DNA from: Calditrichota bacterium | Lineage (GTDB): Bacteria; Calditrichota; Calditrichia; Calditrichales; Calditrichaceae | DNA: 64,000 nucleotides | NCBI GenBank assembly: GCA_024278755.1 | Contig: JAJRSO010000042.1 | Span: forward strand, 1 to 64,000 | Direction: 5' to 3' | Shown here: positions 6,099-25,634 of the stretch, piece by piece | Layout: every line of letters starts with the position of its first letter | Numbering within the stretch: the stretch's first letter is position 1 | Translations under genes and position numbers: made by a program | The notes under the pieces: model-generated | Databases searched by the model: none | Told to the model about the DNA's origin: nothing | What the model saw: the letters and a program-made list of their open reading frames with translations, nothing else

Positions 6099-6970
6099 AT
6101 TAATTCTATGCTTTTAGGTAAAATTTTGATATCTAATTCTTTCATATTCAATGAGAGCAGTTCTCCGTCGGCATGGACGGCAAAACCTTTTTCCGAGCGA
6201 ATGCTTATCTGTTTCGTCCGTACCATTTCTACGCGGGGGTCTTCTTTATGTTTCCCGCTGTATACTTTTATTAAATTCTTAATTATAGAACGTTTAGGCA
6301 TATTCTGAATCAGACACAGGTCCAGCAGGCCGTCATCTATTTGGGCGTCCGGCGTCAGATAAAATCCTCCGCCCAGCGATACACCGTTGGCAACGGTTAT
6401 CAAAAAATAGTTTTTTTGATAGGTGGCGCCATTAAAGGAAAGCTCCACTTCCTGTGGTTTAAAATTTATAAGTGTGTGCAAAACAGCATATAAATAAATG
6501 GCATTCCCTCGTAAGCGGGTCACCTGATTGCCCGTATGCACGGCCCAGGCGTCAAATCCTACCCCAACGCCATTATGATAAATCCGATTGTTCACTTTTG
6601 CCAGGTCAATCATTCTTCGTTTATTGCGCAGAAGAAGCGCCAGTGATTTTTCCATATCCACAGGAATGGATACCGCACGCACGAAATCATTGCCGCTGCC
6701 CACCGGCAAAATCCCCACGGCCGCCTGCGATCCGACTACTCCGTTCAGGATTTCCTGAAATGTGCCGTCGCCGCCTACGGTAACGATAACCGCAAAATCT
6801 TTGGCAGCCTTTGCGGCTAAATCCTGCGCATGCATCGGTTTATCGGTATACACAAGCTGATAATCGAGTTTCAGGGGGGAAAGCATTTCTTCCAGCCTTC
6901 GGCCGAAGGCTTTTCCCTTCCCTCTACCGGAAGCCGGATTTACAATAAAAAAATAATTCAACGCGGTCAC
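6092..6970 (-). CDS. Diacylglycerol/lipid kinase family protein
   Basis: About 292 residues of the DagK/YegS/sphingosine-kinase fold. The nucleotide-binding site is visible as VNPASGRGKG near the N-terminus and VGGDGTFQEILNG, followed by LPVGSGNDFVRA. These enzymes phosphorylate diacylglycerol or similar lipids with ATP and feed phospholipid recycling. The start is uncertain. A GTG at 6970 avoids overlap with ridA; a TTG at 6997 overlaps it by 22 bases; a TTG at 6961 is also possible. It is cotranscribed with ridA upstream and the DUF5683 gene downstream. Confidence 0.85.
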   Translation of the reverse strand: MTALNYFFIVNPASGRGKGKAFGRRLEEMLSPLKLDYQLVYTDKPMHAQDLAAKAAKDFAVIVTVGGDGTFQEILNGVVGSQAAVGILPVGSGNDFVRAVSIPVDMEKSLALLLRNKRRMIDLAKVNNRIYHNGVGVGFDAWAVHTGNQVTRLRGNAIYLYAVLHTLINFKPQEVELSFNGATYQKNYFLITVANGVSLGGGFYLTPDAQIDDGLLDLCLIQNMPKRSIIKNLIKVYSGKHKEDPRVEMVRTKQISIRSEKGFAVHADGELLSLNMKELDIKILPKSIELIC

Positions 6971-10684: not shown

Positions 10685-13171
10685 ATGCAAGAAGATGCGT
10701 CCCTGCTAAAATCTATTATCCAGAACTCCTCGGATATTTTTTTCCGACTAAATCTAAAAAGTGAAATCTTATTTATAAATCCCTCCATTCAAAGCTTTAT
10801 CGGCCAATCCCCTGCGGCGCTTAACGCGGTTCCTTTAAAATCGTTATTGGTACTTCCGCAGGAGTTTATCCTGTTTAAAAACGAATTGGTTCAGACGCAA
10901 AGAGTTCGGAACTACGAGCTCTTGTTTAAACACGCCGATGGGCGGAAAATGTTTGGCAGTATCAATGCCTATCTTCTTAAAAAAGAAGATAAAACATTTA
11001 TCGAAGGCAGTCTTCGCGATATTTCCGAGCAAAAAAAAATGGAAATGGAATTTCGGAAATCCTACAATGCAACCCAAAAATGGCAGCAATATTTTGAAAT
11101 TATTTACGAAATTACCGAGCAGATCAATAAATACCGTGAGATGGAAGAGGTTGGGAACGCGGTAACGCAGGGTCTGGCCAAAATTATGATGTTTGACGCG
11201 TATCAGCTCTATATCTATAACGATGAGCAAAAATACCTGCAACCGGTTTTTTCAACGGAAACATATAAACACAACAGAATCATTTCCAATACGCCGGTTC
11301 CTATTGACAAAGGAATTCTCGGCCGTATTTTCCGCGCTGCCCAAAATGAAATCATCGAAAATATAAGAACCGATCCCGATGTTTTCTATTTACCGGACGA
11401 AGAACAGATTGATGCTTCTCTCATTGCTTCCCCGCTCATTATCGAAGGACGAACCATTGGTGAAATTACCCTGTTAAAAGAAGGGATCGGCCAGTTCCGC
11501 CGCGATGAGTTACGTATTTTGTCCATTATCGGCCGTCAGGTTGCGGTTGCGCTAGAAAACGCCCAGCTTAATGCGCGGTAAATTGAGAATCGCAGAAAAG
11601 CCGAACAGGCCAATCAGGCTAAAAGTGAATTTTTGGCAAATATGAGCCACGAAATTCGAACACCGATGAATGCCATAATCGGTATGGGTGAACTTTTGCT
11701 GGACACTGATATAAATGAGGAGCAGGAAGATTTTTTAATTACCATCCGCGAAAGCTCCTATGCACTTTTATATTTGATAAATGATATTCTGGATTTTTCC
11801 AAAATTGAAGCCGGTAAACTGGATTTAGTGGAAGAAAACTTCAATCTGCACACCCTGCTGGAAATAAGCCTGGAAAGTCTGGCCGCCCGGGCCGAAGAAA
11901 AGGGGCTGGAACTGGCTCTGTATCTGGACCCGGATATTCCTACCGGAATTCTTGGCGATTCCGGACGGATACGCCAGATATTAATCAACTTGCTCGGTAA
12001 CGCCATTAAATTTACAGCCGAAGGCGAAGTAATATTATCCGCTAAGCTCCTAAAAGCGGATAAAAAGCAGTTGGATATTTATTTTTCGGTTCGGGATACC
12101 GGTATCGGAATCCCCGCGCAAAAGACAGGTTTAATCTTTGATAAATTTACACAGGCCGACGGCACAACCACCAGGCAATACGGCGGAACAGGGTTGGGAC
12201 TTGCCATTTCGCGCCAATTGGTAGAGCTGATGGGTGGTAAGATAGGCGTTTCCAGTTCACCGGGCAAAGGCAGCACCTTCTATTTTAATCTTGTGCTAAA
12301 AAAGGGAGAGGACTTTACGGAAGAGTTGCTTCCGGTAGCCGACCTATTAAATTTGCCCGTTCTCATTGTGGATGACAACGCCACAAACCGGCTTATTCTG
12401 GAAAAAATTCTTACCAATTGGAAAATGAAACCGCTTAGCTGTAGCAGCGGTACAGATGCGCTGAAGCTTTTAAATATAAAAGCCGCATCGGATGAATTTA
12501 TTCCCTTGGTTCTACTGGATATGCAAATGCCCGAAATGGACGGCGAAACCACCGCAAAAAAAATTTTAAACACGCCCGCCTTAAAAGAGACAAATATCAT
12601 CATTCTTACTTCCATGGGAAAACGAGGCGACGCAAAGCGATTGAGTAAAATGGGAATTAAACGGTACCTTACAAAACCGGTTAAACAATCGCAGTTATAC
12701 AATGCCATTCTTACGGTTATGTCGAAAAAGGCGGTAACGAAGCATGCGCAAAAGGCCGCTATAAAACAAGCGGACCATGTAATATCAAAAGAAACACCGG
12801 TAAAAATACTGTTGGCGGAAGACAATCCTATTAACCAGCGTGTGGCCGTTAAGATTCTTGAGAAAAAGAACTATACCGTTGATGTGGCCGAAAACGGACA
12901 AATGGCCATGCAGGCTCTGGAAAAAGATCAATACGATGTGGTATTAATGGATGTACAAATGCCCGAAATGGACGGACTAACAGCCACCAAAGCGATTCGA
13001 AAGCTTAATTCGGCAGTTAAAGATATTCCCATTATTGCCATGACCGCCAATGCCATGAAAGGTGATGAGGAAATGTGTCTCGAATCCGGAATGAATGATT
13101 ATATTTCAAAACCGTTTAAACCGGTAGAACTTTACGCCATTATCGAAAAATGGAGTCAAAAAGGGCGATAA
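10685..13171 (+). pseudogene. Hybrid sensor histidine kinase (PAS-GAF-HisKA-HATPase-REC-REC) split by an in-frame TAA
   Basis: One continuous reading frame of 828 codons except for a TAA at 11579-11581 (codon 299). Before it lie a PAS domain (SIIQNSSDIFFRL) and a GAF domain. After it the frame reads [21 protein letters not shown] and then the [11 protein letters not shown] phospho-acceptor box, an HATPase domain (N-box [13 protein letters not shown]1 DTGIGI, G2 GTGLGLAI) and two receiver domains with phospho-acceptor Asp in [11 protein letters not shown] and [11 protein letters not shown]. The linker and H-box are the normal sequence for such kinases, so this is a single gene interrupted by a substitution. 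Two separate proteins are possible using a TTG at 11633, but no ribosome-binding site is evident. AGGAG supports the ATG at 10685 over one at 10643. Confidence 0.85.
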
Positions 13172-24371: not shown

Positions 24372-25634
24372 CTATTCCTCATCATTCTCTTCTGTGTTTT
24401 CTTCTTTAGACGCCGCCTTTACCGCGTCCCATATTTTTTCGGCAGACTTCGCGCCAATACCTTTTAATTCCAGCAGCCCTTCTATTCCCATATCCACAAT
24501 TTCGTCTTCGTACAGAATATCTGCGTCTAAAAGTTTTGCTTTAAGATTATCAGGAATACCTTCTATCTCTTCCACGGGAACCGATACTTTTGTACTTTCC
24601 TGTTCATATTCGGATACCTTAATTGGCTCAATCTGATAACCGGTTAACTGCGAAGCCAAACGTAAGTTTTGTCCGTTACGGCCAATGGCCAGAGACATCT
24701 TATCATCTTCTACAATAACAACGGCCATTTTTTCTTCTTCGTTTACAATTACCTTAATCGGCTTCACCGGCGCCATCGCGCGTGAGATATAGAGTTCCGG
24801 TTCGGTGGCATAACTGATAATATCAATTTTTTCATTATTCAGTTAACGCACAACCGCCTGAATACGCACCCCTTTCATTCCCACACAGGCGCCCACAGGA
24901 TCTATCCGGCGGTCGATGGACTGTACGGCAATTTTCGAGCGGTCGCCGGCTTCGCGCACCACCTCTTTTATTTCAACAATCCCGTCGTATATTTCGGGCA
25001 CTTCCAGCTCAAACAGACGAATTAAAAATTGTTTATCGGCGCGGCTTACGATAATTTCCGGGCCTTTTCCCTGGCTGCTTACCTCTTTTACCAGACAGCG
25101 CACCGTATCGCCGCGGCGTAGACGCTCGTTATAAATCTGTTCTTCGCGGGGTAAGAACACTTCGGTTTTATCCTGATTAATGTAAATACCGCGTTTATGG
25201 ATCTGATGGATATCTCCGATAATGATTTCTCCGATACGTCCCTGATATTCTTCCACCAAACGCTCACGTTCAAAATCACGGATTTTCTGATTCAGGTTCT
25301 GTTTCGCCGTTACAATCAGGCGACGACCAAACGCCATGGGATCGAGCACTTCCACGATTTCTTCACCCACTTCAGCATCTCCATCAATTTTCAGAGCATC
25401 TTCCAATGTAATTTCCGCAACCGGGTCTTCTACGTTTTCCACGACCATTTTTTCCTGAAAGATTTCGATATCGCCCTTATCGATATTTACGATTACATCA
25501 AAATTTTCATCCGTTCCGTATTTTTTTACAATCAGTGACCGAAATATATTTTCGAGAATATCCCGCAAATTTTCTTTGCCGATTCGTTTGTCTTTTGCAA
25601 TTTGAGTGATAGCTTCAATAATTTCGCTATTCAT
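24372..25634 (-). CDS. nusA: Transcription factor NusA, frame interrupted by an in-frame TAA
   Basis: A continuous 420-codon NusA frame broken only by TAA at 24843-24845 (codon 264). The N-terminal RNA-polymerase-binding domain, S1 domain and the start of KH1 (DPVGACVGMKGVRIQAVVR) precede it. In the same frame LNNEKIDIISYATEPELYISRAM follows in full agreement with KH1, then KH2 (MSLAIGRNGQNLRLAS) and a C-terminal helix-hairpin-helix (LLELKGIGAKSAEKIW). The family normally has Glu where the stop lies, one base change away (GAA). No ribosome-binding site supports a separate C-terminal gene at 24776. NusA is usually essential, so sequence error or readthrough must be considered. It lies between rimP and infB as usual. 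Confidence 0.92.

Follow-up and report, generated by a model that had tools for sequence, protein, structure and literature searches.

Does the in-frame stop codon within nusA of this genome mark a tolerated break, a recoding event or a flaw of the deposited sequence? The window, a stretch of 64,000 nucleotides, lies on contig C31 of a draft assembly whose nearest named genomes by sequence are Calditrichaceae MAGs, and a literature search found no publication on this genome. Viewed alone, the stop resembles a tolerated break or recoding in an essential gene. Here we report that it is most likely an assembly flaw and not new biology, because many other essential genes of this genome carry the same single-letter stop.

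The nusA frame occupies 24372..25634 on the minus strand and, by translation, has 420 codons before its terminal TAG, one of them a TAA at 24843..24845 (minus strand). No other stop interrupts the frame, and the TAA is confirmed as real in the deposited letters. With the stop read as X, Pfam profiles placed NusA_N at residues 4-124 and KH_5 at residues 229-296, both above cut-off, and gave a weak match to KH_NusA_C at residues 304-337 (29.9 vs a cut-off of 34.2 bits). The read-through frame hence shows NusA_N and the KH domains in the expected order. The KH_5 match, which is KH1, corresponds to 24747..24950 on the minus strand, it spans the stop, and the TAA cuts its middle. Translation and Pfam thus bear out the preliminary description, which had placed the TAA at codon 264, within KH1, in a frame otherwise open. 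The gene is single-copy in the 79-contig, 3.94 Mb Calditrichaceae MAG and sits in the operon rimP-nusA-infB-rbfA-truB-ribF-rpsO-pnp, in which rimP, infB, rbfA, truB, ribF, rpsO and pnp all have intact frames. In domain order, operon and sequence the product is like bacterial NusA (NusA_N, S1, KH_5, KH_NusA_C and a C-terminal helix-hairpin-helix), with 82% identity over the full length to a same-family relative; it differs from an uninterrupted NusA frame in the TAA at codon 264.

A NusA match was found in 56 of the 60 relatives searched. Codon 264 encodes Glu in all 35 distinct relative genomes whose DNA was read at that position, as GAA or GAG wherever the codon was checked. This agrees with the earlier expectation, drawn from knowledge of the NusA family, of a Glu codon turned into TAA by one G-to-T change from GAA. 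Programmed readthrough, for which a stop conserved among relatives would be expected, is at odds with Glu in 35/35. The same-genus genome G001 holds only the 3' part of nusA, which does not reach back to codon 264; its contig (L032, G001:C140) ends at 6510, at nusA codon 274, ten codons past the stop site, possibly by chance. Apparent internal nusA stops in seven other relatives were rejected, the inspected frames being open or ending in a terminal stop.

Interior stops were scanned for as stop codons with strongly coding sequence, in frame, on either side, over 1.77 Mb, or 45% of the genome. The scan gave 30 candidates within coding frames (about 17 per Mb), with nusA ranked highest. The interior stop is not special to nusA: at least ten further conserved genes have the same kind of stop, one each, in frames otherwise complete. 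The scan placed a TAA in cysS (C25:70626), glnS (C25:84439), smc (C30:30473) and the gene for isocitrate dehydrogenase (IDH; C64:3285), a TGA in a CysK-like enzyme (C12:13395), and interior stops in an M24 peptidase (C14:67417) and a saccharopine-type dehydrogenase (C79:50181). Further interior stops lie in an OmpR-type regulator (C17:16542) and in genes that we take, from family sequence motifs, to be uvrA (TAG, C10:26127), lpxC (C30:55679) and rsmE (C17:68544). Within the window itself, a hybrid histidine kinase / response regulator frame on the plus strand has a TAA at a Glu position (11579..11581, C31:11579), with 314 open codons before it and 529 after. Searches of 24 relatives were made for each of cysS, glnS, smc and IDH. 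In this genome each has a single full-length copy, which carries one TAA, and the copies of the relatives are essentially uninterrupted.

The complete same-family genome G006 was used as a control. By the same intrinsic criteria it gave one candidate interior stop in 400 kb. By homology, G006 proteins covered 157 kb of this genome and revealed about eight real interior stops; the reverse comparison over 123 kb gave one spurious interior stop and no real one. Frameshift-like breaks numbered zero in this genome and one in the reverse direction. The lesion class recurs in unrelated genes here and not in the control genome, as an artefact would. When the loci of relatives were searched in bulk for interior stops, antisense shadow frames swamped the result. 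The sole well supported case among the matches listed is an interior TAG in smc of G014, another MAG of the family (L323:2245), where many relatives have Glu or Gln.

As judged from homologs, Glu is the residue replaced in nusA, cysS, IDH, uvrA, the histidine kinase and the OmpR-type gene. At the glnS stop homologs have Glu or Asp, at the smc stop mostly Glu, and at that of the CysK-like gene Gly. All assigned sites fit a single G-to-T change at codon position 1. Under the codon usage of this genome, G>T makes up 21% of the possible one-step nonsense changes, and its occurrence at nine of nine sites has p ~1e-6 under a uniform spectrum. In glnS a Tyr also stands at a Glu/Asp position nine codons past the stop, again a G-to-T change. 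No stops derived from Ser, Tyr or Cys codons (C-to-A nonsense) were present among the approximately 10 assigned sites (p ~0.03-0.05), where a strand-symmetric G:C to T:A process would be expected to yield about 29% of events from such codons. Replacements of Gly by Cys, Trp or Val relative to G006 showed no excess (4 forward, 11 reverse), and the substitution spectra of the genome's own branch were ordinary, with no overall excess of G:C to T:A, both on small samples. The absence of Ser/Tyr/Cys-derived stops and of a general missense excess may count against a generic G:C to T:A error. The tRNA stems, with one possible G-to-T mismatch among 564 pairs, are too few to reveal general G-to-T damage, and the 16S rRNA comparison had low power for it.

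The assembly itself has the marks of short-read data. Exact 141-base overlaps occur at many contig ends, which indicates short reads assembled by a de Bruijn method at k=141; several ends, such as G000:C31:69003-69142 (G000 being this genome), share identical stretches of 139-141 bp, as arise where such an assembly breaks at repeats. Two further contig-end overlaps, of 305 bp and 317 bp, are near-identical with two mismatches each, which suggests a strain mixture or errors in the bin. Since the contigs are long, low coverage does not readily account for the stops.

Taken with the gene set above, the nusA TAA is most likely a base-level artefact of the draft assembly or an allele not typical of the population, one of a genome-wide set of single-base changes. 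These substitutions, chiefly G-to-T changes at position 1 of Glu codons, would not reflect the functional genome of the organism, and in the living population nusA most likely codes for an unbroken NusA with Glu at 264. Errors, damage or a minority allele would have been carried into the consensus by the short-read de Bruijn assembly, the errors presumably having a chemical or software source, and reads at the site would be expected to be mostly GAA. Among the options raised in the preliminary description, base-level error is the one favoured here, while readthrough of nusA or a two-part NusA is not, given that at least ten other genes share the lesion. Artefacts of library preparation or sequencing of the 8-oxoguanine type resemble the present set in being G to T, without indels and scattered over the genome; they normally remain below the consensus level, and they differ from the assigned sites, which seem confined to the coding strand and to Glu/Gly codons. 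Strand-asymmetric G>T mismatches are reported to follow ex vivo oxidation (PMC12390751). Single nonsense changes, as well as pseudogene or split-gene calls, from this draft genome are untrustworthy without reads.

It is unlikely that the stops are real low-frequency nonsense alleles of the natural population, kept by the assembler at many loci while most cells carry intact genes. The paired mismatches in the 305 bp and 317 bp overlaps, by suggesting strain heterogeneity, would suit such alleles, but a natural source should give a mixed, transition-rich set of nonsense changes (e.g. CAG to TAG), whereas the assigned sites all fit G to T, and lethal variants of essential genes should be very rare.

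Very unlikely is a second account, in which UAA, UAG and perhaps UGA within frames are decoded at Glu/Gly positions throughout the genome, by way of an unknown suppressor or a modified base. The frames are intact beyond every such stop and free of frameshifts, the stops fall at conserved Glu, and neither coding-strand C-to-A nonsense nor a clear missense excess of G-to-T accompanies them, all of which speak for decoding. Since the strand asymmetry and the ordinary spectra fit an artefact poorly, on samples that are small, we leave a slight share of belief to genuine recoding. Among 46 Rfam tRNA matches in the whole assembly and 47 tRNAs by ARAGORN in the sampled contigs, none has a UUA or CUA anticodon, as a suppressor reading UAA or UAG would; TAA remains the usual terminator, closing 544 of 872 long ORFs against 168 for TAG and 160 for TGA; and three RF-1 family matches have intact frames (350, 362 and 158 aa), with their release factor domain matches intact. 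A cognate tRNA, reduced use of the codon as terminator and a lost or changed release factor, the signs of an alternative code, are thus absent from this assembly. The in-frame stops within conserved genes are like those of known stop-codon reassignment or suppression; unlike in such systems, all three stops are hit with no cognate tRNA while TAA terminates normally, and the stops are missing from nearly all other family genomes. Three stops at two kinds of residue (Glu and Gly) also do not fit one reassignment. That UAA, UAG and UGA are decoded at Glu/Gly in perhaps 100-200 genes while still serving as terminators is accordingly most improbable; the route could be an unknown suppressor, or a modified guanine seen as T by sequencers and as G by RNA polymerase. 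If the stops were backed by reads, they would amount to a novel mode of stop decoding. A readthrough mechanism particular to nusA lacks support, and it is unnecessary because many other genes carry the same lesion; the efficient readthrough proposed earlier loses its footing with the lack of a suppressor tRNA in the assembly and the presence of similar stops genome-wide.

The preference for an assembly artefact or unrepresentative allele is strengthened by what a true nusA null, tolerated or covered by a second gene, would entail. The genes nusA, cysS, glnS, lpxC and smc are essential, and no cell could live with all of them null, which rules out taking the stops in these genes as nulls. The stop is real in the assembly, as a null would need, but the downstream half of nusA shows the expected conservation, cysS, glnS, lpxC and smc would have to be null simultaneously, and the second intact nusA that had been proposed as a check was not found in an assembly estimated to be 95.8% complete. 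A true null is extremely improbable. A NusA that works as two polypeptides, the N-terminal piece comprising NTD, S1 and half of KH1 and the C-terminal one translated anew from codon 287, is of negligible probability, for although an in-frame ATG, the first after the TAA, does lie 23 codons past the stop (24774..24776, minus strand), the cut falls mid-KH_5 and leaves the N-terminal piece 35 of 69 profile positions, no Shine-Dalgarno-like sequence lies 5' of this ATG while GGAGG/GGAG does precede pnp, rpsO, infB and nusA, none of the relatives is split at codon 264, and the lesion common to many unrelated genes would be left unexplained.

The tRNA survey gave three minor observations. A tRNA-Trp is missing among the 47 tRNAs of the sampled contigs, probably owing to an assembly gap, and a tRNA-SeC (TCA) is present at C53:6603-6694. 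Two slightly different copies of the cluster Gln(CTG)-Arg(ACG)-Glu(CTC) lie at G000:C2:15-453 and G000:C50:141078-141659; C2 is a contig of 4.4 kb, and its copy could reflect strain variation or paralogy.
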